Part shown: piece after piece, positions 87 through 45,200 of the stretch
How positions within the stretch are numbered: position 1 is the first letter of the stretch
How the letters are laid out: the number at the start of each line of letters is the position of its first letter
Source: Unio delphinus
Lineage: Eukaryota > Mollusca > Bivalvia > Unionida > Unionidae
DNA length: 64,000 nucleotides
Assembly: GCA_029339505.1 (NCBI GenBank)
Contig: JAQISU010000123.1
Location: 4,572,501 to 4,636,500 of the forward strand
Reading direction: 5' to 3'
Notes under the pieces: model-generated
The model's input: only the letters and a program-made list of their open reading frames with translations
What the model was told of the DNA's origin: nothing
The model's database searches: none
Program-made: the position numbers and the translations under genes

Positions 87-3000
87 CTAAAAAATGATAA
101 CACAAATGTAAGATAGATTATTGTCTAGATGTTAGCACACTAGCTTGTAATACCAAACGGTCTTGAGTACAAAGCAATGAACAAAAGTCACCAGACATAT
201 TTATAGTGGAAAAGATAGACATCATGTTCTTTTAACAACATGTTGGGAAAAAGACGCCAATTAATAAAAGGAAAACCATTATGGATGACAATATTGCAGG
301 GTAATGACTACTGTAATTCATCAGCCATGAAAGTTTGGTGATGTCTAAAGAATGCTGTAGCTAAGTTTTTTTAGCTTTAACAATTTTTCAGTCATATCGC
401 TTCGATGTCAGCAGTGAGGCAGTTTATAGTGATGTCTAGCACTGGGGCATCATGCCACAGACATGAAGCATGATGTCCACACCCAGTCACATTATCCTGA
501 CACCAGGCCGACCAGTCCTAACACTAACCTCTTAATACTGAGCTTCAAGCGAGGCAGCTGTTAGTACCATTTTTGTAAGTCTTTGGTACGAATCGACCGA
601 GAATCGAACCCACGACATCCCGCTTCTGCGGAGGACGCTTTAACCACTAGGCCACCGGAGCAGTTTGTAGCTAAGTAAGAGCAATAACACCATTTCAAGT
701 TCAGATTTGTGAATGTAAAGAAATGCTGACTGGCTTATTTTTGTTTGTTTCATTTAGCCCCCCTGAATGGCTTACAAACAGACAGTAAATCCTGTACTAA
801 ATATAAGTAAATACCCTTTTTCCAAAAATTAATATTGAAAATTAATGAGAAAATATTTTTTTTCTTAAATAAATATGAACTTCCACTATTTTCTAAATTT
901 TAAAATTCAAACAGTGCTCAGGATTTTCTTACATAATGATATACAAAAAGTCAGTCCTATTATATCATATATATTATATTAATGCATCTCATATCTTCTA
1001 AGCAGTTTATTATCATCATTTGACATAACACATTTTACACTGAAATAAAATGTGAAAACTACATTAAGATCTCCAGTCCCATTTCAGACCCAAAGATGGT
1101 ACACCAGTACTTACCAAAACCAGTTACAGAATGGTCATAGACAATCAATCTGGTTTGCTGAGAATGATTATTTAATTTCTGTAAATTTATGAATTATAAA
1201 AAACACATTTTCTATTTGTTTATTTTGTTTTTTAGGGTTTAACGCCATTTTTCAGCACACGATAGGCTATACATGGCAGCCAGCAGTATTGGTGGAGGAA
1301 GAACCAGGGAAAACCCTTGAAAGAACCACCGACCCACAAGAAGCTACTGGCATGCTTTCTCACATAAATACATTAGCCGAATCTTAGACTCGAACCCATG
1401 CAGAGGTGAGATGGCAGTGATCCATAACAGAAAGCACTTCAGACCACTTGGCCACCATTTAATATTTATATTATATTAAATAATTAGATTTGACTGATAA
1501 CATTGTCTGTGATTAATGACACAACCTGCAGTATTTAATCTGATATATTATGCATCCAAGGAACAGAAATATCTATTTGCCTTACCCCAATTCAGCTACA
1601 GTGACAATGTTGCAACATGTAAACATGAAATGTATTAAAGAGACTTTGTTTTAGTTGATCAACTTCATACTATTTAATAACAACAATCTGTGGTAAGATG
1701 ATCCATATTGGGATTTTAATATGTGTATGCTTCATGTTGGGATTTAAATCTGAGAATGCCTGATGTTGGGATTTTAATCAGTGTATGCTTCAATTGGAAT
1801 TTTAATCTATATTACGCTTCATGTTCAGATTTTCATCTATGTATGCTTCAATTGGGATTTTCATCTGTGAATGCTTCATGTTGGGATTTTCATCTGTGAA
1901 TGCTTTATGTTTGGATTTTCATCTGTGAATGCTTCATGTTGGGATTTTCATCTGTGAATGCTTTATGTTTGGATTTTAATCTGTGAATGCTTCATGTTGG
2001 GATTTTCATCTGTGAATGCTTTATATTTGGATTTTCATCTGTGAATGCTTCATGTTGGGATTTTCATCTGTGAATGCTTTATGTTTGGATTTTAATCTGT
2101 GAATGCTTTATGTTTGGATTTTAATCTGTGAATGCTTTATGTTTGGATTTTAATCTGTGAATGCTTCATGTTGGGATTTTCATCTGTGAATGCTTTATAT
2201 TTGGATTTTCATCTGTGAATGCTTCATGTTGGGATTTTCATCTGTGAATGCTTTATGTTTGGATTTTCATCTGTGAATGCTTCATGTTGGGATTTTCATC
2301 TGTGAATGCTTTGTTTGGATTTTAATCTGTGAATGCTTCATGTTGGGATTTTCATCTGTGAATGCTTTATGTTTGGATTTTAATCTGTGAATGCTTCATG
2401 TTGGGATTTTCATCTGTATATGCTTCAACTGGGATTTAAATTTGTGTATGATACTTGATGTTGAGATATTAATCTGTATGATGCTTGATATTGGGATTTT
2501 AATGTGTGATGCTTGGAACCGTGGCAGACCCAAAGAGACCTGGCAACGAACAGTGGAGAGAGACCTTAAGACCAGAGGCCTCACCTATCAGACCGCCCCT
2601 GCAATAGCTGCCGACAGACGGAAATGGTGCTCCCTTGCTGTTGCCTCAAGCACCAGACGGCGCATAGAGGATTGATTGATTGATTGATGATGCTTGATAT
2701 TGGGATTTTAATGTGTATGTTTAATCTGGTTTATTTTAATCTGTGTATGATGCTTGATATTGGGATTTTAATGTGTATGTTTAATCTGGTTTATTTTAAT
2801 CTGTGTATGATGCTTGATGTTGGGATTTTCATCTGTGTATGTTTAATCTGGTTTATTTTAATCTGTGTATGATGCTTGATGTTGGGATTTTCATCTGTGC
2901 ATGTTTAATCTGGTTTATTTTAATCTGTGTATGATGCTTGATATTGGGATTTTAATGTGTATGTTTAATCTGGTTTATTTTAATCTGTGTATGATGCTTG

Positions 3001-6000
3001 ATATTGGGATTTTAATGTGTATGTTTAATCTGGTTTATTTTAATCTGTGTATGATGCTTGATATTGGGATTTTAATGTGTATGTTTAATCTGGTTTATTT
3101 TAATCTGTGTACGATGCTTGATATTGGGATTTTAATGTGTATGTTTAATCTGGTTTATTTTAATCTGTGTATGATGCTTGATATTGGGATTTTAATGTGT
3201 ATGTTTAATCTGGTTTATTTTAATCTGTGTATGATGCTTGATATTGGGATTTTAATGTGTATGTTTAATCTGGTTTATTTTAATCTGTGTATGATGCTTG
3301 CTGTTGGGATTTTAATGTGTATGTTTAATCTGGTTTATTTTAATCTGTGTATGATGCTTGATATTGGGATTTTAATGTGTATGTTTAATCTGGTTTATTT
3401 TAATCTGTGTATGATGCTTGATGTTGGGATTTTAATGTGTATGTTTAATCTGGTTTATTTTATTCTGTCTATGATGCTTGATGTTGGGATTTTAATGTGT
3501 ATGTTTAATCTGGTTTATTTTAATCTGTGTATGTTGCTTGATATTGGGATTTTAATGTGTATGTTTAATCTGGTTTATTTTAATCTGTGTATGATGCTTG
3601 ATATTGGGATTTTAATGTGTATGTTTAATCTGGTTTATTTTAATCTGTGTATGATGCTTGATATTGGGATTTTAATGTGTATGTTTAATCTGGTTTATTT
3701 TAATCTGTGTATGATGCTTGATATTGGGATTTTAATGTGTATGTTTAATCTGGTTTATTTTAATCTGTGTATGATGCTTGATGTTGGGATTTTAATGTGT
3801 ATGTTTAATCTGGTTTATTTTAATCTGTGTATGATGCTTGATATTGGGATTTTAATGTGTATGTTTAATCTGGTTTATTTTAATCTGTGTATGATGCTTG
3901 ATATTGGGATTTTAATGTGTATGTTTAATCTGGTTTATTTTAATCTGTGTATGATGCTTGATGTTGGGATTTTAATGTGTATGTTTAATCTGGTTTATTT
4001 TAATCTGTGTATGATGCTTGATGTTGGGATTTTAATGTGTATGTTTAATCTGGTTTATTTTAATCTGTGTATGATGCTTGATATTGGGATTTTAATGTGT
4101 ATGTTTAATCTGGTTTATTTTAATCTGTGTATGATGCTTGATGTTGGGATTTTAATGTGTATGGTTAATCTGGTTTATTTTAATCTGTGTATGATGCTTG
4201 ATGTTGGGATTTTAATGTGTATGTTTAATCTGGTTTATTTTAATCTGTGTATGATGCTTGATATTGGGATTTTAATGTGTATGTTTAATCTGGTTTATTT
4301 TAATCTGTGTATGATGCTTGATATTGGGATTTTAATGTGTATGTTTAATCTGGTTTATTTTAATCTGTGTATGATACTTGATGTTGGGATTTTCATCTGT
4401 GTATGATGCTTGATATTGGGATTTTAATGTGTATGTTTAATCTGGTTTATTTTAATCTGTGTATGATGCTTGATATTGGGATTTTAATGTGTATGTTTAA
4501 TCTGGTTTATTTTAATCTGTGTATGATGCTTGATATTGGGATTTTAATGTGTATGTTTAATCTGGTTTATTTTAATCTGTGTATGATGCTTGATGTTGGG
4601 ATTTTCATCTGTGTATGATGCTTGATATTGGGATTTTAATGTGTATGTTTAATCTGGTTTATTTTAATCTGTGTATGATGCTTGATATTGGGATTTTAAT
4701 GTGTATGTTTAATCTGGTTTATTTTAATCTGTGTATGATGCTTGATATTGGGATTTTAATGTGTATGTTTAATCTGGTTTATTTTAATCTGTGTATGATG
4801 CTTGATGTTGGGATTTTAATGTGTATGTTTAATCTGGTTTATTTTAATCTGTGTATGATGCTTGATGTTGGGATTTTAATGTGTATGTTTAATCAGGTTT
4901 ATTTTAATCTGTGTATGATGCTTGATATTGGGATTTTAATGTGTATGTTTAATCTGGTTTATTTTAATCTGTGTATGATGCTTGATATTGGGATTTTAAT
5001 GTGTATGTTTAATCTGGTTTATTTTAATCTGTGTATGATGCTTGATATTGGGATTTTAATGTGTATGTTTAATCTGGTTTATTTTAATCTGTGTATGATG
5101 CTTGATATTGGGATTTTAATGTGTATGTTTAATCTGGTTTATTTTAATCTGTGTATGATGCTTGATGTTGGGATTTTAATGTGTATGTTTAATCTGGTTT
5201 ATTTTAATCTGTGTATGATGCTTGATGTTGGGATTTTAATGTGTATGTTTAATCTGGTTTATTTTAATCTGTGTATGATGCTTGATATTGGGATTTTAAT
5301 GTGTATGTTTAATCTGGTTTATTTTAATCTGTGTATGATGCTTGATATTGGGATTTTAATGTGTATGTTTAATCTGGTTTATTTTAATCTGTGTATGATG
5401 CTTGATATTGGGATTTTAATGTGTATGTTTAATCTGGTTTATTTTAATCTGTGTATGATGCTTGATATTGGGATTTTAATGTGTATGTTTAATCTGGTTT
5501 ATTTTAATCTGTGTACGATGCTTGATATTGGGATTTTAATGTGTATGTTTAATCTGGTTTATTTTAATCTGTGTATGATGCTTGATATTGGGATTTTAAT
5601 GTGTATGTTTAATCTGGTTTATTTTAATCTGTGTATGATGCTTGATATTGGGATTTTAATGTGTATGTTTAATCTGGTTTATTTTAATCTGTGTATGATG
5701 CTTGCTGTTGGGATTTTAATGTGTATGTTTAATCTGGTTTATTTTAATCTGTGTATGATGCTTGATATTGGGATTTTAATGTGTATGTTTAATCTGGTTT
5801 ATTTTAATCTGTGTATGATGCTTGATGTTGGGATTTTAATGTGTATGTTTAATCAGGTTTATTTTAATCTGTGTATGATGCTTGATATTGGGATTTTAAT
5901 GTGTATGTTTAATCTGGTTTATTTTAATCTGTGTATGATGCTTGATATTGGGATTTTAATGTGTATGTTTAATCTGGTTTATTTTAATCTGTGTATGATG

Positions 6001-9000
6001 CTTGATATTGGGATTTTAATGTGTATGTTTAATCTGGTTTATTTTAATCTGTGTATGATGCTTGATATTGGGATTTTAATGTGTATGTTTAATCTGGTTT
6101 ATTTTAATCTGTGTATGATGCTTGATGTTGGGATTTTAATGTGTATGTTTAATCTGGTTTATTTTAATCTGTGTATGATGCTTGATGTTGGGATTTTAAT
6201 GTGTATGTTTAATCTGGTTTATTTTAATCTGTGTATGATGCTTGATGTTGGGATTTTAATGTGTATGTTTAATCAGGTTTATTTTAATCTGTGTATGATG
6301 CTTGATATTGGGATTTTAATGTGTATGTTTAATCTGGTTTATTTTAATCTGTGTATGATGCTTGATATTGGGATTTTAATGTGTATGTTTAATCTGGTTT
6401 ATTTTAATCTGTGTATGATGCTTGATATTGGGATTTTAATGTGTATGTTTAATCTGGTATATTTTAATCTGTGTATGATGCTTGCTGTTGGGATTTTAAT
6501 GTGTATGTTTAATCTGGTTTATTTTAATCTGTGTATGATGCTTGATATTGGGATTTTAATGTGTATGTTTAATCTGGTTTATTTTAATCTGTGTATGATG
6601 CTTGATGTTGGGATTTTAATGTGTATGTTTAATCAGGTTTATTTTAATCTGTGTATGATGCTTGATATTGGGATTTTAATGTGTATGTTTAATCTGGTTT
6701 ATTTTAATCTGTGTATGATGCTTGATATTGGGATTTTAATGTGTATGTTTAATCTGGTTTATTTTAATCTGTGTATGATGCTTGATATTGGGATTTTAAT
6801 GTGTATGTTTAATCTGGTTTATTTTAATCTGTGTATGATGCTTGATATTGGGATTTTAATGTGTATGTTTAATCTGGTTTATTTTAATCTGTGTATGATG
6901 CTTGATGTTGGGATTTTAATGTGTATGTTTAATCTGGTTTATTTTAATCTGTGTATGATGCTTGATGCTGGGATTTTAATGTGTATGTTTAATCCGGTTT
7001 ATTTTAATCTGTGTATGATGCTTGATGTTGGGATTTTAATGTGTATGTTTAATCTGGTATATTTTAATCTGTGTATGATGCTTGATGTTGGGATTTTAAT
7101 GTGTATGTTTAATCTGGTTTATTTTAATCTGTGTATGATGCTTGATGTTGGGATTTTAATGTGTATGTTTAATCTGGTTTATTTTAATCTGTGTATGATG
7201 CTTGATGTTGGGATTTTAATGTGTATGTTTAATCTGGTTTATTTTAATCTGTGTATGATGCTTGATGTTGGGATTTTAATGTGTATGTTTAATCTGGTTT
7301 ATTTTAATCTGTGTATGATGCTTGATATTGGGATTTTAATGTGTATGTTTAATCTGGTTTATTTTAATCTGTGTATGATGCTTGATATTGGGATTTTAAT
7401 GTGTATGTTTAATCTGGTTTATTTTAATCTGTGTATGATGCTTGATGTTGGGATTTTAATGTGTATGGTTAATCTGGTTTATTTTAATCTGTGTATGATG
7501 CTTGATGTTGGGATTTTAATGTGTATGTTTAATCTGGTTTATTTTAATCTGTGTATGATGCTTGATATTGGGATTTTAATGTGTATGTTTAATCTGGTTT
7601 ATTTTAATCTGTGTATGATGCTTGATATTGGGATTTTAATGTGTATGTTTAATCTGGTTTATTTTAATCTGTGTATGATGCTTGATATTGGGATTTTAAT
7701 GTGTATGTTTAATCTGGTTTATTTTAATCTGTGTATGATGCTTGATATTGGGATTTTAATGTGTATGTTTAATCTGGTTTATTTTAATCTGTGTACGATG
7801 CTTGATATTGGGATTTTAATGTGTATGTTTAATCTGGTTTATTTTAATCTGTGTATGATGCTTGATATTGGGATTTTAATGTGTATGTTTAATCTGGTTT
7901 ATTTTAATCTGTGTATGATGCTTGATATTGGGATTTTAATGTGTATGTTTAATCTGGTTTATTTTAATCTGTGTATGATGCTTGCTGTTGGGATTTTAAT
8001 GTGTATGTTTAATCTGGTTTATTTTAATCTGTGTATGATGCTTGATATTGGGATTTTAATGTGTATGTTTAATCTGGTTTATTTTAATCTGTGTATGATG
8101 CTTGATGTTGGGATTTTAATGTGTATGTTTAATCAGGTTTATTTTAATCTGTGTATGATGCTTGATATTGGGATTTTAATGTGTATGTTTAATCTGGTTT
8201 ATTTTAATCTGTGTATGATGCTTGATATTGGGATTTTAATGTGTATGTTTAATCTGGTTTATTTTAATCTGTGTATGATGCTTGATATTGGGATTTTAAT
8301 GTGTATGTTTAATCTGGTTTATTTTAATCTGTGTATGATGCTTGATATTGGGATTTTAATGTGTATGTTTAATCTGGTTTATTTTAATCTGTGTATGATG
8401 CTTGATGTTGGGATTTTAATGTGTATGTTTAATCTGGTTTATTTTAATCTGTGTATGATGCTTGATGTTGGGATTTTAATGTGTATGTTTAATCCGGTTT
8501 ATTTTAATCTGTGTATGATGCTTGATGTTGGGATTTTAATGTGTATGTTTAATCTGGTATATTTTAATCTGTGTATGATGCTTGATGTTGGGATTTTAAT
8601 GTGTATGTTTAATCTGGTTTATTTTAATCTGTGTATGATGCTTGATGTTGGGATTTTAATGTGTATGTTTAATCTGGTTTATTTTAATCTGTGTATGATG
8701 CTTGATGTTGGGATTTTAATGTGTATGTTTAATCTGGTTTATTTTAATCTGTGTATGATGCTTGATGTTGGGATTTTAATGTGTATGTTTACTCTGGTTT
8801 ATTTTAATCTGTGTATGATGCTTGATATTGGGATTTTAATGTGTATGTTTAATCTGGTTTATTTTAATCTGTGTATGATGCTTGATATTGGGATTTTAAT
8901 GTGTATGTTTAATCTGGTTTATTTTAATCTGTTTATGATGCTTGATATTGGGATTTTAATGTGTATGTTTAATCTGGTTTATTTTAATCTGTGTATGATG

Positions 9001-12000
9001 CTTGATATTGGGATTTTAATGTGTATGTTTAATCTGGTTTATTTTAATCTGTGTATGATGCTTGATATTGGGATTTTAATGTGTATGTTTAATCTGGTTT
9101 ATTTTAATCTGTGTATGATGCTTGCTGTTGGGATTTTAATGTGTATGTTTAATCTGGTTTATTTTAATCTGTGTATGATGCTTGATATTGGGATTTTAAT
9201 GTGTATGTTTAATCTGGTTTATTTTAATCTGTGTATGATGCTTGATATTGGGATTTTAATGTGTATGTTTAATCTGGTTTATTTTAATCTGTGTATGATG
9301 CTTGATGTTGGGATTTTAATGTGTATGTTTAATCTGGTTTATTTTAATCTGTGTATGATGCTTGATGTTGGGATTTTAATGTGTATGTTTAATCTGGTTT
9401 ATTTTAATCTGTGTATGATGCTTGATATTGGGATTTTAATGTGTATGTTTAATCTGGTTTATTTTAATCTGTGTATGATGCTTGATATTGGGATTTTAAT
9501 GTGTATGTTTAATCTGGTTTATTTTAATCTGTGTATGATGCTTGATATTGGGATTTTAATGTGTATGTTTAATCTGGTTTATTTTAATCTGTGTATGATG
9601 CTTGATGTTGGGATTTTAATGTGTATGTTTAATCTGGTTTATTTTAATCTGTGTATGATGCTTGATATTGGGATTTTAATGTGTATGTTTAATCTGGTTT
9701 ATTTTAATCTGTGTATGATGCTTGATATTGGGATTTTAATGTGTATGTTTAATCTGGTTTATTTTAATCTGTGTATGATGCTTGATATTGGGATTTTAAT
9801 GTGTATGTTTAATCTGGTTTATTTTAATCTGTGTATGATGCTTGATATTGGGATTTTAATGTGTATGTTTAATCTGGTTTATTTTAATCTGTGTATGATG
9901 CTTGATGTTGGGATTTTCATCTGTGTATGTTCAATGTTGGGATTTTAATCAGTCTGATGCTTTATGATGAGATTTTAATCTGTGTAATGTTGGATTATAA
10001 TCTGTGATCGATGCATCATTTGGGATTTTAATCTGTGTATGATGCTTCATGTTGGGATTTTAATCTGTGCATGTTTAATGGTAGGATTTGAAAATATATA
10101 TGTTCATTGCTGGGATTTTAATCTGTATATGATACTTCATATTAGGATTTTAATCTGTGTATGATGCTTCATATTAGGATTTTAACCTGTGTATGATGCT
10201 TCATATTAGGATTTTAATCTGTATGATGCTTCATATTAGGATTTTAATCTGTGTATGATGCTTCATATTAGGATTTTAATCTGTGTATGATGCTTCATAT
10301 TAGGATTTTAATCTGTATCATGCTTCATGTTGGGATTTTCATCTGTGTATGATGCTTTGTATCAGGATTTTAATCTGTGTATGATGCTTCATGTTGGGAT
10401 TTTAATCTTATATGATGCTTCATGTTGGGATTTTGATCTGTGCATGTTTAATGATAGGATTTTTAAATATGTACATTTAATGCTGGGATTTTAATCTGTG
10501 TATGATACTTCATGTTAAGATTTTATTTAATCTGTGTATGATGCTTCCTGTTAGGATTTTCATGTCAATGCTTAATGTTAGGATTTTCATCTGTGTATGC
10601 TTCATGTTGGGATTTTAATCTGTGCATGATGTTTCATTTTGGGATTTTAATCTGTGTATGATGCTTTATGCTGGGATTTTAATCTGTGTATAATGCTTCA
10701 TGAATGGGAATTTAATCTGTGTATGCTGCTTCATGTTTGGAATGTAATCTGTGAATGATTCATGCTGGGATTTTAATCTAAGATGCCTCATGTTGAGATA
10801 AAGATCAGAGCACTTACTTCATAGTTAATATTGAGTGAAATAAAATTCAGTTACCAAACAGTTATCTATAGGTTATCACTGCATAAAAAGGTACAAAAAA
10901 AACCCCATAAGAATTTAGCATGCCACTACAGCTATGGGATACTGCTCCACCTAGCAACTACCCATGCAAACTCATTAGATCAATCCCAATTTTATTTATC
11001 TATTTACTTATCTATATATATAAAAATGAATGTTTGCTTGCTTGTGTTGTATGCGTTCCTATACCGTTCATCCGATTGCGATAAAACTTTGGTGAGTTCT
11101 TCTGCGCACGCCCGCGAAGGTTTCTGAATTAGTACAACCATTTAAATTGTACAATTAACAAATGTGTGTATTTCATATAGTTTTGCGACATTTACCGTGT
11201 GTTCACTGTGAACTGTAGGCGCCTTAGATACGTCACGTGATCGAACAGTAGGCGCCTTAAATATGTCACGTGATCGAACACGGTCTGTAGCGATACCTAA
11301 TTTCGCATGTCTTCGGTGTGAACTGTAGGCGCCTTAGATACGTCATGTTTACTTAGTTACGTTTGATTCGCACCTTTTTTACATCAAACAATCGTGGTGT
11401 GCATTTGTAATAGTTGAAACAGACGAGCAACGGGAAGCAAGATTGGAAACCGTTCAAGTTCGCACTGCTCAAGCCCGATCACTTTCACAAAAACTTTCTT
11501 TCTTTGAGTGGCATTGCAACGCATGCCAGGATTAAAACATGAACACTTTCTTTCTTTGAGTGGCATTGCAACGCATGTCAGGATTAAAACACGAACACTT
11601 TCTTTCTTTGAGCGGCATTGCAACGCATGCCGGGTACTTGCTAGTTCATTATATTTGAAAAAACATGTAAATAACACATATTCAAAATTAAAAAAGGGAT
11701 CATTTTTATTCAATTTCAAGTTTTATTTTCCATCAGTACATTTTTTATTTTTGGGGGGAAATAATAAGGAATTTTGAAACAAATACAAAGATTTTCAAGG
11801 TTGTAAGAATATGGCTTCTTTTTCACCCTATATATAAACCAACTACAAAGTCTGGTCTTTGAGCCACAACGACCTTGACTTTTGACCTTTCAATCCCAAC
11901 ATCAACAGAGGTCCTTCCTTCAAGTCCATAAGTGTGAGCCCTTAACAGTACCTTCAGGTATGTGGTCTAGTGTTGCAGTTTTGACACAAAACCATTTTTC

Positions 12001-27000: not shown

Positions 27001-30000
27001 AATGAAAAATTTAAAAATACTATTGCAGAGAGGGACCAGACAGACGTTTATTTAAAAGTCAGATTGGAGATGACATGAAAACTGGACATCAAGAATCCAA
27101 CACACGATCATGAGCAAATGACAAAAATGAACTATAGCCAAATATAGGTTAAGGCATGCCTCTTTTCTTGTAAGAAAGTGTTATTAACTGTGATGCATAA
27201 TATCATCAATTTCATGATTCTAGCATGAGCAGTGCCTGAACATCAAAACGAAAAGTTTACAACATGGGATATATTCATCAATGTTTGAATGAAAATTCCG
27301 TGTTAATCAAGATGCAACACCTCACCAAGTTGCATGATTCTAGATCGACTGCAACCCAGTCCACCAAATAAGCCCACAATATAGTCAAAAGCTAAACAGA
27401 AACAGTGAACCTAAGTTATTAAAATGTGAAATGTAGATCACAGTGACCTTCTTTTGTTTTATGATGGTACTAACAGAGATGCATACAATTAATCAGTAAC
27501 CAAGTCAACACAGAATGAATCATCAGTAACAGTAATCATGTAATGATAGTGAAATATTCCACTTTAAAGTTTCATGATTCCAAGTATAACAGTAATCATG
27601 TAATGAATTTTGTCATGAAACTTAACATAAGCTTAGCCTAGTAAATGTAAAATGCAGGTCACAATGGTTTCCTTCTGCCTGATAATAACATACATGCACA
27701 CAATTCTCTAGTTTGATGATTCTACCATTAGCATTTGTTGAGAAAAAAAATTTTTAAACACAAAATGTTAACACCGTCACGAAGTGTGAAATTTGGGTGA
27801 CAAGTCTAGTTTGTGATGATGGTGCAGTATTCATCAAAATGCACACACCCCAAGTCGTGATTCTAAGTACACAGGTATGCAACAAGAGTACAATAAACTG
27901 TACATTGCAAACCCATTTTTATTCCTTCGGTTGTGGTGACCTGGACCCTTGACCTATGATCCTTAATTCATGTGTCATTCTTGCCTCAAATGCAAGCAAC
28001 TGACAAAATTTGGTCATAGCTTGTTGCATAGGACTTGAGTTACTTGGTGGAAACCATTTCCTCTCTAACCTGAACTTTTCACCATTAAACCCTTAAATGA
28101 ACTGGTATCTTGTTTGTCTCAGATGCAAGCCAAGTACAGAACTTAAATAATTTCTGGAAACCATTTTTTCTTCTTTTAGTCATGTGACATTGACCACTGA
28201 TCTGTTCATCCAAACATGAACATGTGTCTTCCTCATCTCAACTGCAAACCATCCACAAATTTTCATAAATTTTAATGTAGGTGATAACGAAGATAACATA
28301 CAGAAATTATTGTTATTCTTGTAGTCAATGTGACCTTGGACTTTAAACTTTTCCTTCTAAAGACAATATATATCTTTTTTCCTAATTCAAATGCAAGCCA
28401 TTTCCAAAGTTTTGTCAAGACATCTGTTAAAGAAGTGAAGCAATTATGTGAAAACAGGTTTCATTCTTTCAGTTACATAACCTTGACTTCTGACTTTTGT
28501 AGCCCAAAATCAATAGGCTTCAGCCTTTCCCCAAATGCACATTTTTTCTGGTAATGACTGACTAATCATGCAGAAACAAAATGGCAAATAGATGGATATA
28601 ATGCCCTTAAACCAGGCATTTAAAAACTGTGTACACTGCAGTACATATAAACACTAAATAAAGGTGCAAATGTATGATACAGGGTACAAAACCTGCAGAA
28701 ATGAAGTATTACAAACAGAATACAGCCCTCTTTTCTCTTTCTGCATCAACATTATGAGACATGGCCATTGCCAAGTATCTTGGAAACCTGAGCTTGTCTG
28801 AGCAAAATTTGAGCTTGTCCTGGGAATCAGGCAAATAGCTTTATAAATCCATGGAATGTATATTTTCCCCCTCTTTTTGAGAAACACTCACCCTCATTCT
28901 CTTTAAAGAACCACCCACCCTCATTATCTTAAAGAACCACTCACCCTCATAAAATGTATATTCTTTTAATGCAGTAGGTCATTACTCTACCTGACTTTCT
29001 GTAATCTTTTTCCTTGGCTTGCTGTTAGGGTTGAGTGGGTGGGGATCTTCAGGAGCATCTATCTGTAACATCTGGAAATTCCCCCAGCCTGGCAGGTGAA
29101 CCAATCCATTCACAGAGAGGGCACGACCTCGCAGGTAACCAGTCAACTTCAAAGTACCAGTCCCGCTCTGTAAACAGATTTAAAGAAATAAGAACAATCT
29201 ATTTATAGTACAGAACATGGCATTTTAAGTCCAGATGAACATACTGATAAATTTTGAGTATAATACTGTGACCGCCAGTAAAAGACCACATTTCTAAAGA
29301 GATCATATTTTGTTTGCAGACAGGGTGTTCTTATGGCTGGTTTTACAGTATTGTTTTCAAAGATTTCTGAATCATTTATATATATGCACAGAAATCAAAC
29401 AAGAAAAACTGAAGATATTACTGCTGTAAAATATCATAAATGGATTATATTTTCAAAGCCTAGCTTAGACAGGACAGCCAGATTTTATTCCCACTGTGCA
29501 ATTTATCATGGAAATAAGTACTGGAATCAGGAAATGAGTACTGAATTGTGTTCTTCTGAATAATCTAAATTATTTAGTACCACCAGCTAATCATTCTTCT
29601 GCACCTCAAGTACAAGCCATCCACAAAGTTTGATAAATACAGCCAATGAAGAACTCCAGTTATTGTGCAGAAACCAATTTCCTTCTTTCAGTAAGATACC
29701 TTTTTCTTTTGACCCCAAAATCAACAGGGTTCTTCCTTACTCCATGTGTAAGTTATGTACAGAGTTTGGTAAATGTAGATGTTGGACAGTTTAAGTCATT
29801 GAGCCAAAACAAATTTGTTAATGGATGGGTGGACAACAATAAAACATAATACTCTCTGCTTTAAAGATTGGAATATACAAAATTAAAAAGTTAGTTCAAA
29901 GAACAATCAGACATGAAAAGCTTTAATATTTAATTATTTTTTAAAAAAAACTTAGTAAAGCAATTAAAAAGTATTTACATCTGAGTTTTCCACTTCAAAA

Positions 30001-36200: not shown

Positions 36201-39200
36201 TGAATTCAATATAAAAGGAACCTGATTTGGCAATGAAAGCTGGGATCATTATGAGTTATACTGCCCCATCCTTTCAGGAATGCAAGAGGTTCATGTCAAC
36301 TGAAAAAGCATGTGTATCATTAATTCTGTCTGCCATTACAAGTACAAGTAGGAAGCAGATCGTATATGAAAGGTGAAAACCAATTAAGTAATAAAGAGCA
36401 ATCTAAACTGTGTCTTATTCAGCAAAGTTATCACCCATGATAGATCCACTTTGGGCAAAAAGCCAATACCTTTGGACAAATGAACTGAAAATATGACACC
36501 AAATCAGAAAGGTCTTGTTTCTATGATGACACTGTCATGAAAGCCTTTTATTGTGATTGGTGTTAACTGTTTCTCATCAAAGAGTAGGAAGGTAGTAGTT
36601 AATTCCATGTGTTTCCATCACATACTTCTAGCTGAGGGCTTTCTCCAGTGCTGCCAACCCTCCAGGCTCACAATTTGGGAAAATGATGATAAAAATTCGT
36701 GGATTTTGACAAGAATTCATGAATTGATCCCAGAATCCGCGAACATTTGTCTGAACAAATGAATGCATGGCCAATGTTTGGCATATTCCAAATAAAACTG
36801 CACTTTTGTTGCAATATATTTTTTTTTTATTACTATTTCGAGTTTTCTCTGACCATTGCCACACCATTTTTTATATTTGGAAATATATGTTTGGGCGTCG
36901 AGTCAGGAGTCCATTCCCTATCGAAAAGTTGGAATTCGCCAACACCATTTGATGTCGGCATGGTGTTACTAACTGTCCCAGCAAACTTGAACGATCTTTC
37001 ATTGAGATATACCTGCTTGAAATCAATAGAAAAATGATTTATTTTCTCAAAAATCGTGAGCATTGCATTCATTCGTCTTTAATCCGCTGACAGGAGAGAT
37101 GAAAATATACTGTTGCTGAAATTTGACCTGGATCTGTTTTTATTGTCTGAGTCACATCAATCACTACAAGCCTCGCAACCTACATGTCAATGAGGTCATA
37201 TTGTCATGTGATAATGGACAATAAACAAATTTCCAAAGTCAGAGGAAACTCAGACTATATTTTTCCTTGGTTGTGAAGACATTTTGAAAATAAGTTGTTG
37301 AATGGTAATTAAAATCAGCATTGTCGGTTCATGTGGGGAACAAAATTCCGGTTAAATCCCAGTTTCTCTTAAAAGCATTTTGTAAAACTATTCTTACATT
37401 TATAGATTAAAATACGTTAAAATGCTTGCTACTGGGCCAACAGTACTTCTCAGCTATAGTAACTACTGATATCATGACTAGCGCTTAACGGAAAATCAGA
37501 TATTTTATTAAATATTAAAAAAAATGAAAAATTGGAGAATTTTCATGAATTTTTTGCATGCAGCGTGAATTAGTGAATCAATGAAAAAGTCGTGAGGGTT
37601 GGCAAATCTGATTCTTTTCACCACTTGAGAGAACTGTTTGTGCATGAGGGATGGATTAATATAATCCACTAAACAACTCCAGATTGAAATTGAGTGCCTG
37701 TCGTCAAGGTAGCTTGTGCAGATAAGGAAACATAAATTTTTCCTGTGAAACTCAGCCACTATTTGGATGAGGTCATAGGTCCATGACATTCTCCCACCTG
37801 TGTGGAGCAATAAGAATGATGCAACACTTCCATTCTCTTGTTTTTTATATCACATTTTCCACAGGGCTGCAGCAGATTGAGCATATATATCCAAACCATT
37901 CCAATCTATCAAAGATGCAAAGACTGCCTAGAATTTCAGATCTGGGGCTGGTGAGACAAATGTAGGGAGCTTTATTAACCCCTTGTCACCATTGATCCAC
38001 TATTGAGGTCTGTCTCAGCATTTGAGTGAAAACCAAGGGATGGAGTTAGCTGATGCTTCTAAAATGAGTTCGCTAAGACCTGTAGCAGCCTAAACAATTT
38101 GTCCATGGATCTGTTACTGAAGACACCAGCATAGACATCCCCAAAGAAGAATACAAAGGTCTGGATACTTTGTTTCACCACCCCGAAACTTCTAAGATAA
38201 TTCACCAAAGTAGAGATGTCACACAGAAAGAAAAATGAGAATGTCCTTCCATGTATTTTTATCCTGCCACCAATAGAATGCTTTCCATATGGCTTTCATC
38301 TCTAGGATACTGATATGCAATAGTCAATCCTGAGTGAATCACTGTCCACTGGCTTCCTCTAATGATGGAAGATATGCAACCCAGCCCATTGTGTTCATGT
38401 CCGTACAAACTTTGAGTCTACCTGCATGAAACCACTCAACATAAGCCAAGTGAGTTCTAACATTCGTCAGATGGCACCTCATATGTATTGTTTGTTCCAA
38501 GGTACAAACGTTTCTCTGCCATTGGGACAATCAGTGTAATGGTTTCATAAATATGTGAATAAGGACAGTGCTGCTGAAAGATGGTTGTTAGTAAGATTTA
38601 AAGCTATCTGCTGTCCCCCCCCCTCCTAAAAAGGAACTGGACACAACGTCACTACCAGTATGCAAATGAACTAACAGACCATGGAGTGGCATGGAACTAT
38701 ACAGTAGTACATCTACACCAACTGGATGTCTTTCACCAGTTGCATGGAATATGTGATATTAGTAAACAGTGTCCTTGGGCATGTCTGAAAATCAGCCTAA
38801 GCAAACTAAGGTATTTGTTGTATAATGTGCAAATAGGTGTAGGGAAAAACAAAGCACACTGAACAACTAAGGAGAGTTTTACTAATGTTGGATAGACACA
38901 AAGTAATATCATGGTATCTCTATCATATTGCTGAAAGTGCAAGAAATAAAATCTTCTTGCAAGTCATTCCCTACCTGTAGTGCCAGTGTGACTGCTGGAA
39001 GCCCCTGCCCAAACAGACAAGAAAGACACTTTTCTCCATAATCATCAATCCCTCTATCTGTTGACAGCACACAAAGAAGACAGTCTGCAATCTTAGCTGC
39101 ATCCAGTAGAGAATACAGGTCCCCACATGGAGGACAGTAAAAAGACAGTCTCTGTTTGAAGCGAGGAACCCTGAATAAATTAAACAAATTCACTGTTTTA

Positions 39201-42200
39201 CTTTACAAGGACTAATCTCATTAAATGTCAGGCTCAAATATAATCAATCACCTCTTCTTAATTTTCAATACATGTATCACCAAAATTCTTATAATTGTTT
39301 GTACACAAAAAATTATTTGTTTCAGGGTACATGTAAAAAAAAAACACAATCACTAATTTGCAGTAGAGAGTACAAAAATAAAGGAATTGTACAAAAAATG
39401 TGACATTCAAGACTTGCTAACCATACCATACCAATGTAAAAAAAAAAAGAAGTAAAATGGCCACCTCAATGATCTAAATACAATAAAAGATAAAAATACT
39501 CAAACTGTCTTTTGTTTCTATTATTGAATGTTACTTGTAGCTGTGGTTTCGTCTTATGTTGGCATTTTAATTAAGTAGGTCACAGAGTCTTTTACAGCTG
39601 CATATAATGTACTGATAGTATAGATACTATTTATAATTTTATAAATAGACAGTTCTTTTCAATTATCACCCTTTGAATTGATTTAGTCTGCTGGAAGCAC
39701 CACTCCTGCATCTGCCATTACATTACTGTGAAGCGCTGTAAACAAACTGACACTGAATAGTGCAATGTCTAAAACAAAATTGTATTATGCAATATAAATG
39801 AATGGACTGACGACATGAGAAAGTGGCAAAATGTCATGTACGGTGACATTTACAAATACATGTAATTAATCTCACAGAAAGAAGTAGATGGAAAATAAAT
39901 GAAGACCTTTAAAAGCTCACAAAGTTAAATCTACTTCCAGAGTGGAAATATGGACACAATTTTGCACAATACACCAAACTTGGTGGATAAAATTATCATG
40001 AAAGGAGAAATACGCCCATCGCAGTCAGTACATAAAGTAAACGAAGCTTACTAGTATGTTATTAGTTGGGGTTGTTGAGAATGGGTGGTGTACACTCATG
40101 CAGTCATGTCAGTGCTTTGTTGCTGTGAAAAAAAATCTTACTGTGGTCAGTTTTACTGATAAAACAGTTAAGCAGAACAGAGACACAAAGAGAAATTTTT
40201 TAACCGAAACCATTTGCAAATATTTTTTTTAAAAACAACAAATTAGTTACATCCCCATTAAAAATGACAGACAAGAAGTGCCCATTGCCCAAAACACACC
40301 ATTTTATTTAACAAAGGCAGATTTTAAAACAGCTGTTGACAATTCACCATTTAAAGCTTTATTCCAAATTAAAAGAGCAACAATGGAAAAAAAAAATCAC
40401 AAGTGAACCTTCGAACTGTACCGATGATACATCACATCATAATAGTGCTGAAAGCTCATTTTCTTGTGGGAAATGTTTAACATATTTCAAAATTATGTAA
40501 GCCTGGATGCAGATCATATTAATAAACTGCAATATGAAACTAAGTCAGTGTAAATGTCCTTAATGGAGCAACTCTCTAAAAATTGAGAATCACAGCTAGC
40601 AGTTCACACAAAGTACTATTAAAGTGACAATTGACTGCATCAATTTCATAAGAGATTATTTACATTCAAAATTTATTGGCAACAAGATAAAAAAAAACAT
40701 AGGCAGGGGAGTGATGTTAAAGCAAAAACTTTTTATTTGTAAATGGCTATAATGTAAGTGACTGTGGATTGAATGTGTCAGTTGAGGAGAAAAGGTTATG
40801 TGTAATTCCTGATAGGATTTTAAATGGATATACTTTGCTAGAAATTATAAACCAATTTCCTAATTCTAAATGGACAGTGTTATAGTAACTCTTTGCTTGT
40901 GGCAAATATGAAGCAACTCTGTAAATAGTGAAAATGGAAAAAGTTAATGGAGGCAGAGGATTTTATCTACAAGTTCAAGTAACTGTTTTTTGCACAGGGT
41001 TTAATAAATGCATGTATGTGAGGGAGATAAACAACACTGTGTTTGGTAAATGTATGTGTGTCAGTGAGATAAACAACATTGTGTTTAGTAAATGTATGTG
41101 TGTCAGTGAGATAAACAACACTGTGTTTAGTAAATATATGTGTGTCAGTGAAATAAACAACACTGTGTTTGGTAAATGTATGTGTGTCAGTGAGATAAAC
41201 AACATTGTGTTTGGTAAATGTATGTGTGTGAGAGAGATAAACAATAGTGCTTAGTAAATGTATGTGTGCGAGATAAACAACACTGGGTAAAACATCTTGC
41301 ATATCCAGAGTGGCATTTGTAACTTTCACAGAGAGCGAGAGAGATAGAGACAGAGAGGGAGAACGAGGAAGAATAGTTACAATTGCGTTGTAATCTTGAT
41401 TGTTCATTTACTGATACTTTAAGGGTACTACTATATTCCGCTTACGATTAACACATCTGAATAAACATTTCATTCTTGTGTTATTAATGCTAGCCATTCA
41501 CACAACATTTCAGAAACCCCATGTCTATGAAAAGTAACATGCTATTTAAATAAACCTATAGCTCTGGTCAAGTTATTCTAGTCAATACTGGCTTGAAGAC
41601 ATGATTCCCATAGACAAAATCAAATTACTATCTATAGGAAATGAGGCTATTGATAGGGAAATGAAATATGTCTATAATCTAGACATGGTCATTGTAAAAC
41701 AGCAGTAAAAGAGATATTGTATTGACAAGTCAAGAACTTTTAATAGTGATCAGCTTAATAAATTGCACACATTAATGATACTTTAAAAATGAGATCATCA
41801 GAAAAAATGTTTGCACAATTATATTATTCATTGTTTTTTAATTTCCTGTTTCATTCTTAAATTCCCAATTTTAAAACTCACCCAAAGTTTATAAGTACTT
41901 GATTTCATGAGATAAAACCAACAACATATAAATACAAGACTTCTCTTCATAAATGAAATGGTGATTTTTAGTACATTATTTTATGCCTAATTTAAAATTC
42001 CTACACAAAGTTAATCAGTAGTAGATTATTGTACCTATGTCAATATTAGCGAGAATTCTACATGAGGATTGCATGTTGTACCTATGTCAATATTAGTGAG
42101 AATTCTACATGAGGATTACACTTTGTACCTATGTCAATATTAGCGAGAATTCTACATGAGGATTGCATGTTGTACCTATGTCAATATTAGTGAGAATTCT

Positions 42201-45200
42201 ACATGAGGATTACACTTTGTACCTATGTCAATATTAGCGAGAATTCTACATGAGGATTGCATGTTGTACCTATGTCAATATTAGTGAGAATTCTACATGA
42301 GGATTGCATGTTGTACCTATGTCAATATTAGTGAGAATTCTACATGAGGATTACACTTTGTACCTATGTCAATATTAGCGAGAATTCTACATGAGGATTG
42401 CATGTTGTACCTATGTCAATATTAGCGAGAATTCTACATGAGGATTGCATGTTGTACCTATGTCAATATTAGTGAGAATTCTACATGAGGATTACACTTT
42501 GTACCTATGTCAATATTAGCGAGAATTCTACATGAGGATTGTATGTTGTACCTATGTCAATATTAGTGAGAATTCTACATGAGGATTACACTTTGTACCT
42601 ATGTCAATATTAGTGAGAATTCTACATGAGGATTACACTTTGTTCCTATGTCAATATTAGTGAGAATTCTACATGAGGATTACACTTTGTTCCTATGTCA
42701 ATATTAGTGAGAATTCTACATGAGGATTACACTTTGTTCCTATGTCAATATTAGTGAGAATTCTACATGAGGATTACACTTTGTACCTATGTCAATATTA
42801 GTGAGAATTCTACGAGGATTACACCTTGTACTTATGTCAATATTAGTGAGAATTCTACATGAGGATTACACTTTGTACCTATGTCAATATTAGTGAGAAT
42901 AATACATGAGGATTACACTTTGTACCTATGTCAATATTAGCGAGAATTCTACATGAGGATTTCATGTTGTACCTATGTCAATATAAGTGAGAATTCTACA
43001 TGAGGATTACACTTTGTACCTATGTCAATATAAGCGAGAATTCTACATGAGGATTGCATGTTGTACCTATGTCAATATAAGCGAGAATTCTACATGAGGA
43101 TTACACTTTGTACCTATGTCAATATTAGTGAGAATTCTACATGAGGATTACACTTTGTTCCTATGTCAATATTAGTGAGAATTCTACATGAGGATTACAC
43201 TTTGTTCCTATGTCAATATTAGTGAGAATTCTACATGAGGATTACACTTTGTTCCTATGTCAATATTAGTGAGAATTCTACATGAGGATTACACTTTGTA
43301 CCTATGTCAATATTAGTGAGAATTCTACGAGGATTACACCTTGTACTTATGTCAATATTAGTGAGAATTCTACATGAGGATTACACTTTGTACCTATGTC
43401 AATATTAGTGAGAATAATACATGAGGATTACACTTTGTACCTATGTCAATATTACAGTGAAAATTATACATGAGGATTACACCTTGTACATATGTCAATA
43501 TTACAGTAAGAATACCAGCCAAAGTTTACACCTTATACCTATGTCAATATTAAAGTTGTAAATGAGAATTCTATCCAAGGGTTACACCTTGTACCTATGA
43601 CAATATTATAGCTGACTATCTTAACTATAAAGTGCCTAGTCACAACAACTTTACTCACGTTATATGTTGGATGCCTTCACAACAACTTTACTCATGTTAT
43701 ACGTTGGATGCCTTCACAACAACTTTACTCACGTTATACGTTGGATGCCTTCACAACAACTTTACTCACGTTATACGTTGGATGCATTGACAACAACATT
43801 ACTCACGTTATACGTTGGATGCTTTGACAACAACTTTATTCACGTTATACGTTGGATGCCTTCAAAACAACTTTACTCATGTTATACGTTGGATGCCTTC
43901 ACAACAACTTTACTCACGTTATACGTTGGATGCCTTGACAACAACTTTACTCACGTTATACGTTGGATGCCTTCACAACAACTTTACTCACGTTATACGT
44001 TGGATGCCTTCAAAACAACTTTACTCACGTTATAAGTTGGATGCCTTGACAACAACTTTACTCACGTTATACTTTGGATGCCTTGACAACAACTTTACTC
44101 ACGTTATACTTTGGATGTCTTGACAACAACTTTACTCACATTATACGTTGGATGCCTTGACAACAACTTTACTCACGTTATATGTTGGATGCCTTGACAA
44201 CAACTTTACTCACGTTATATGTTGGATGCCTTGACAACAACTTTACTCACGTTATATGTTGGATGCCTTGACAACAACTTTACTCACGTTATATGTTGGA
44301 TGCCTTCACAACAACTTTACTCACGTTATACGTTGGATGCCTTCACAACAACTTTACTCACGTTATATGTTGGATGCCTTCACAACAACTTTACTCACGT
44401 TATATGTTGGATGCCTTGTTCGTTCAGTTTGTCAACTACCAGTGTTTCATCACATGTTTTCAAAAGGTCCATGAGAGCATTGGTGTCCACTGTCCTATCA
44501 AGGGTTACAATCACCTGGAGAAATATGACAATGCAACAATTATCAAAAAAGAAAAACAGCAGCAATAGCATATACTCTTTGCTAAATTGTATGGCAAGGA
44601 AAGTTATTTATGTTTACCAATGTCATTGAATACAACATTTTCAAAATGATTCTCAAATGTAACTGTGAGCTTGCAATGCTTCAGTTGAATTATTTAAAAT
44701 CTAATAGTTCTGAAAATCACTATATTTAGTGCTATTGAATTTCTGCACATGATGGCACTATAAAATGTTCACAAGTAAAAAGTTTCATACTTTATCATAT
44801 TGCTGGTAGCAAAAAAAATGTATTAGCAAGTGACAGTGTGGTAATCATGTCAAATTTGTACAGTTTGTTACCACTCTAAAGTTTTAAACAAACAGAAAAG
44901 AATGAAAACTAAAATATTTGGTAAATTTTACCAGATAATTTATATTTATAAAATACAAACTGAAACTGTCAACCATCAAAAGAACAGAACTTAGTGTATT
45001 GTGAAAAAAAAATCACAAGTAATCCAAGAATATCTACAGTAAATAATAATGAATAAGTTCCCTAATAAACTGAGTGGGACTCCAAAATAAATCTAACATC
45101 AAAAGTGTTGATGTGTCTGTGATGGCCTGTAAAGTGCAGATATGCCAATGGTCTTTACTTAAATCACATTAAGATAATTCAAGGTTTCCATGTTTAAATT

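Follow-up and report, generated by a model that had tools for sequence, protein, structure and literature searches.

The 64,000-nt stretch of contig JAQISU010000123.1 of Unio delphinus analyzed here (the window) carries TSR1 on its minus strand. The TSR1 model consists of 13 exons chosen manually on the basis of similarity and splice signals, the last of which reaches the window edge; it has 12 GT-AG introns and 507 codons and is free of stops. Its product contains the Pfam domains Tsr1_G-like (E 1.3e-24) and AARP2CN (E 3.2e-22), and residues 9-506 align with a solved TSR1 chain (6g18, which we take to be the human TSR1 structure; E 1.4e-128), supporting the identification of the gene as TSR1 in a previous sequence-only reading of the window. 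The best database protein was that of the freshwater mussel Potamilus streckersoni (92% identity over 83% of the query), which has identical residues across the exon 4/exon 5 junction. The remaining part of TSR1, including the C-terminal part, was matched in the following 30 kb, as far as the end of the relative that served as query. The features relevant to this junction are as follows.

44399..44514, minus strand: TSR1 exon 4, 116 nt, phase 0 to 2, whose last 19 nt are the exonic part of the repeat unit.
44393..44398, minus strand: real splice donor GTGAGT (AAC followed by GTGAGTAA), from the joined exon model and U1 pairing.
39171..44398, minus strand: intron 4, 5228 nt, from the joined exon model.
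38975..39170, minus strand: TSR1 exon 5, 196 nt, acceptor TTATTCAG followed by G, from similarity and the joined exon model.
43641..44417, minus strand: 37-bp minisatellite of 21 tandem units, from repeat finding and unit-by-unit reading.
44395..44397, minus strand: in-frame TGA (codon 131) met when the first donor is unused, from the reading-frame model.
42029..43552, minus strand: second intron-4 minisatellite, 47 bp in 32.4 copies, with no site within 0.5 kcal/mol of the real donor.

The stop-free 13-exon model bears out the proposed junction of exon 4 (44399) with exon 5 (39170), at which a codon is split as AC/G. Exon 4 alone (37 residues) gave no match with solved structures at E up to 10; its assignment is based on the domain and structure matches of the joined model and on the alignment with relatives.

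Unit 1 of the 37-bp array (44417-44381) is the genuine exon 4/intron 4 junction of TSR1. Each unit is made up of 19 coding bases (44417-44399 in unit 1), GTGAGT (44398-44393), and 12 more intron bases. The unit had thus been described correctly as exon end, donor, and intron, with the coding part given as about 17 bases instead of 19 and the intron bases after the donor as about 14 instead of 12; the array itself is real, while its bounds had been set slightly wrong (43632-44416). Unit-by-unit reading confirmed 21 tandem units with the functional junction as the first and exact GTGAGT in 18 of them including the real junction. The predicted ladder of decoy donors at 37-base steps is likewise present, with GTGAGT kept in 17 of the 20 copies. 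The departures are ATGAGT in units 15 and 20 and GTGAAT in unit 16; both ATGAGT changes are at a CpG, as is one change in unit 8 directly before GT. Units 1, 2, and 21 are identical in sequence. The array occupies 758 intron bases of the 5228-nt intron 4. A 29-base piece of the unit had 20 matches in the window at up to three mismatches, all of which were inside the array, and none in 100 shuffles. In the whole 2.5-Gb genome, the same piece had 21 matches at up to two mismatches, all 21 in the TSR1 array; the unit was not found elsewhere at this threshold, and the array is present once in the one assembly searched. A dispersed or viral element was rejected on this ground and because no exact match was found in viral contigs. 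A gene or RNA family inside the array was also rejected: no Rfam family matched the window at the gathering score, and three of the plus-strand frames through the array gave only Pfam matches below the cut-offs, with no stretch passing alone. Just past the last unit, positions 43632-43640 (ACTAGGCA) have AGGCA in common with the unit start AAGGCA (44412-44417), a likeness that may be left over from the founding slippage.

To the end of exon 4 the model assigns the residues NEQGIQHIT/VPRF, and exon 5 continues with VPRFKQR. Among 120 listed homologues, the junction motif is kept in 21 of the 23 named molluscs, the misses being Tegillarca and Pomacea; the motif is loose, since 48 of the 120 listed proteins have it. 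In an alignment of the model with its 50 best homologues, this stretch was recognizable in molluscs and most other invertebrates and altered in corals and a frog. At unit position 13, the exon has A (CAT, His), while the copies have G in 13, A in 6, and T in 1 of 20; G at this position would code for Arg. Since the exon end is old, conserved coding sequence, the exon is the source, from which the array was copied later. The exon 4 end has not been overwritten by the array. The proposed exonic origin of the unit is therefore supported by the coding sequence conserved among molluscs. That the array originated in the intron and the exon end was later converted to match it, or that the likeness arose by chance, appears extremely improbable: no supporting point was found, the exon end codes for residues conserved across molluscs, and the genome-wide search at up to two mismatches placed the unit nowhere else. 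In the Pomacea canaliculata TSR1 record (P0050), about ten extra residues lie exactly at the exon 4/exon 5 junction; this points to an old intron in that position, with splicing that is uncertain in the gene model.

The setting of the array is rich in minisatellites. When those with a period of at least 10 and at least 3 copies are counted, their share of the sequence is 21.2% in the window, 8.9% in the 30 kb that follow, and 7.7% in a sample of twenty 10-kb stretches at round coordinates (5000 N are included in one stretch). In intron 4, 2569 of 5228 nt are in three minisatellites (37-bp, 47-bp, and 42-bp), the repeats other than the 37-bp array amounting to 1524 nt (47-bp) and 287 nt; the gap between the 47-bp and 37-bp arrays (43553-43640) is less than 90 bp. 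In intron 12 (13.7 kb, minus strand), minisatellites extend over 9 kb at 1704-10779, about two thirds of the intron, and include a 60-bp unit repeated 128 times at 2687-10406. We positioned 16 window arrays at random, which had been hand-chosen from 59 repeat rows by merging overlapping rows and leaving out short-period repeats and several small arrays. Under this control, an array covered a donor and ended inside its exon in 28% of trials; under the stricter requirement of an end 10-30 nt inside the exon, the figure was 6.5%. Before selection, which may remove some of them, donor-covering arrays should therefore be frequent in the genome. Arrays touching an exon numbered 2.14 as expected from random placement and 1 as observed; if anything, exons are avoided by the arrays.

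The sequence-only reading had stated that use of any later donor runs into an immediate in-frame TGA, and this was confirmed: with each of the 20 later donors, the stop falls at codon 131, for added lengths divisible by three and for the rest alike. With the next one to three copies as donor, exon 4 would measure 153, 190, and 227 nt. Many exon junctions lie downstream of this premature stop, and nonsense-mediated decay (NMD) is expected for such transcripts. Any intron retention at the exon 4 donor meets the same TGA, and therefore the stop needs no special design. The 130-aa truncated TSR1 product gave three candidates in protein databases, none significant, in what is a weak test.

Donor strength was estimated as the predicted pairing energy with what we take to be the 5′ end of U1, a rough measure only. 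By this measure the real donor, with C at −1, is middling (−7.4 kcal/mol). Sixteen copies have the same value, one has −7.1, and the three changed ones have −4.2, −4.2, and −2.0 kcal/mol, so that 17 of the 20 are within 0.5 kcal/mol of the real donor. In the rest of intron 4, a single site (41881, −10.4 kcal/mol) is within 0.5 of the real donor or better. When intron 7 (811 nt) was scanned whole and the others over their first 900 nt, sites as strong as the intron's own donor numbered 16 in intron 4 and 0 to 13 in the other 11 introns. The idea that strong downstream donors are unique to intron 4 was rejected, because at least one GT site pairing as strongly as the intron's own donor occurs within this range in 8 of the 12 introns, counting intron 4, and intron 8 contains three that pair more strongly. 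The latter are donor-like sites at +46, +72, and +99 in a 26-bp array of 2.7 copies (28880-28950, minus strand) 40 nt past the exon 8 donor; an in-frame TAA occurs within three codons after exon 8. An RNA hairpin hiding the donor was also rejected, as the sequence folds no better than shuffles (z of 0.30, −0.17, and −0.20 for one, two, and three units and 1.26 for the exon end with unit 1).

The claim that the decoys have stayed intact while other positions varied did not hold. Among the 20 copies, GTGAGT was changed at 3 of 120 sites and the other 31 positions at 26 of 620 (Fisher p 0.61); without the two commonly variable sites, the other positions had 9 changes in 580 (p 0.44). Variable positions numbered 2 of 6 in GTGAGT and 8 of 31 elsewhere in the unit, and 24 of the 37 circular six-base windows, the donor hexamer included, showed as few or fewer changes. 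Within the array, the decoys are thus not more conserved than their surroundings, the pattern looked for in a conserved NMD-coupled regulatory element, and a selection keeping them intact is not supported by the variation among the units. Neighboring units differ by 1.65 compared with 2.16 in shuffled order (p 0.0026, presuming that the repeat was assembled without error), and this greater likeness of adjacent units is as expected from local duplication.

These results are probably best explained by a neutral minisatellite born at the locus and tolerated there, in which the first donor would dominate with slight leakage into NMD. A 37-bp tandem duplication would have arisen across the exon 4/intron 4 junction of TSR1 in a minisatellite-rich genome, and slippage or unequal exchange would have expanded it on the intron side to a total of 21 units. 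All units would have inherited the donor, leaving 17 of the 20 copies equal or nearly equal in predicted U1 strength. Exon definition (a 116-nt exon between introns of 1731 and 5228 nt) would make the exon-proximal first donor dominant, with the next one to three copies presumably used at a low rate and the resulting RNAs, stopped at codon 131, removed by NMD. The array would thus be tolerated, not selected. A point against dominance of the first donor is that it is predicted to pair with U1 no more strongly than 16 of the copies. According to the available excerpt of PMC9225289, the upstream one of near-equal donors is preferred under exon definition (long introns), the figure over all classes being 60% of events; donor choice also favors shorter exons. 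Because of this preference and the retention and skipping described for human ABCA7 in the excerpt of PMC5954066, we expect mostly normal splicing of TSR1, with a few percent of transcripts retaining one to three units and lost to decay and possibly some skipping of exon 5. Since the upstream preference is moderate (the 60% given in that part of PMC9225289), the leakage could exceed the ABCA7 figure.

Other readings give the array a function or an effect. The copies might form a regulatory decoy array in which copy number and the levels of splicing factors set the fraction of TSR1 RNA that decays and thereby tune ribosome biogenesis. The stop at codon 131 shared by all 20 later donors, the predicted U1 energies of 17 of 20 copies, which differ from that of the real donor by at most 0.3 kcal/mol, and the fall of ABCA7 expression with a longer VNTR (PMC5954066, in part) fit this idea; we nevertheless regard it as unlikely, as the donor hexamer is conserved no more than the rest of the unit, any retained intron sequence here meets the same TGA, and unit retention in ABCA7 is unrelated to VNTR length in the same excerpt of PMC5954066. 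That copy number sets a steady decayed fraction, so that TSR1 dose would differ between individual mussels, appears slightly less likely again. A length effect other than unit retention, as in ABCA7, is possible. Specifically, a longer array might, by lengthening or disturbing intron 4, cause exon 5 to be skipped like ABCA7 exon 19, whose skipping increases with VNTR length in the consulted part of PMC5954066. In TSR1, skipping of exon 5 (196 nt) would shift the frame and skipping of exons 4 and 5 (312 nt) would keep it; against such an effect, the array accounts for 758 bases of a 5228-nt intron in which other repeats occupy a further 1524 and 287 nt, and we consider it improbable. It is very improbable that the copies serve as U1 sites protecting a long intron from premature polyadenylation or otherwise aid splicing. 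Although 18 sites of predicted U1 grade lie in the first 758 nt of intron 4, the longer introns 5 (5328 nt) and 12 (13725 nt) have 0 and 3 sites of own-donor strength in their first 900 nt, and the decoys carry no conservation signal. That the array does anything beyond being present is unproven; nothing here shows it, and intact decoys, the sole internal argument for a function, did not hold.

TSR1 is regarded as an essential ribosome-assembly gene, and the array shows that a gene taken as essential can carry a donor-spanning repeat. Equal donors in an identical 19-base exon context at 37-nt steps make the locus a near-ideal natural experiment on spliceosome choice, for which exon definition predicts use of the first donor and an intron-proximal rule predicts use of the last.

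Intron gain by tandem genomic duplication is described in the excerpt of PMC4974935. The TSR1 duplication resembles such cases in bearing splice-like sequence but differs in that the duplicated stretch spans an existing junction without a new intron: the frame crosses the junction only via intron 4, and the residues are the same in Potamilus. The array instead has the features of a donor-spanning minisatellite, as unit 1 holds the gene's own donor and 17 of the 20 copies are donor-grade. A molluscan example was not found in the literature searched, where the mollusc-directed search was made without the splice-site question. In human, the ABCA7 intron 18 VNTR is a 25-bp repeat with 23.7 copies in the reference genome, the first GT of which serves as donor for exon 18; splicing from the following donor leaves one unit in the transcript, with a frameshift and a premature stop as the result, and this one-unit retention makes up about 2 ± 1% of transcripts independently of VNTR length, while a longer VNTR is associated with more exon 19 skipping and lower expression (excerpt of PMC5954066). 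Like this VNTR, the TSR1 array starts at a splice donor. Its units carry 19 coding bases, whereas the first two bases of the ABCA7 unit are the donor GT, according to the same excerpt. In ABCA7, length variation and splicing have been measured, whereas the TSR1 array is known from the sequence of one assembly. The source study for the human IFI6 (6-16) minisatellite is reportedly that of Turri, Cuin and Porter from 1995, and its unit is presumably 12 bp, which would preserve the frame. Two downstream repeat units of this minisatellite are used as donors, and protein isoforms are referred to in the accessible part of PMC4526556. The TSR1 array is like that of IFI6 in that a minisatellite supplies several splice donors, and unlike it in having a 37-bp unit and an immediate stop. 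The TSR1 array is thus of a kind already known from human ABCA7 and IFI6.
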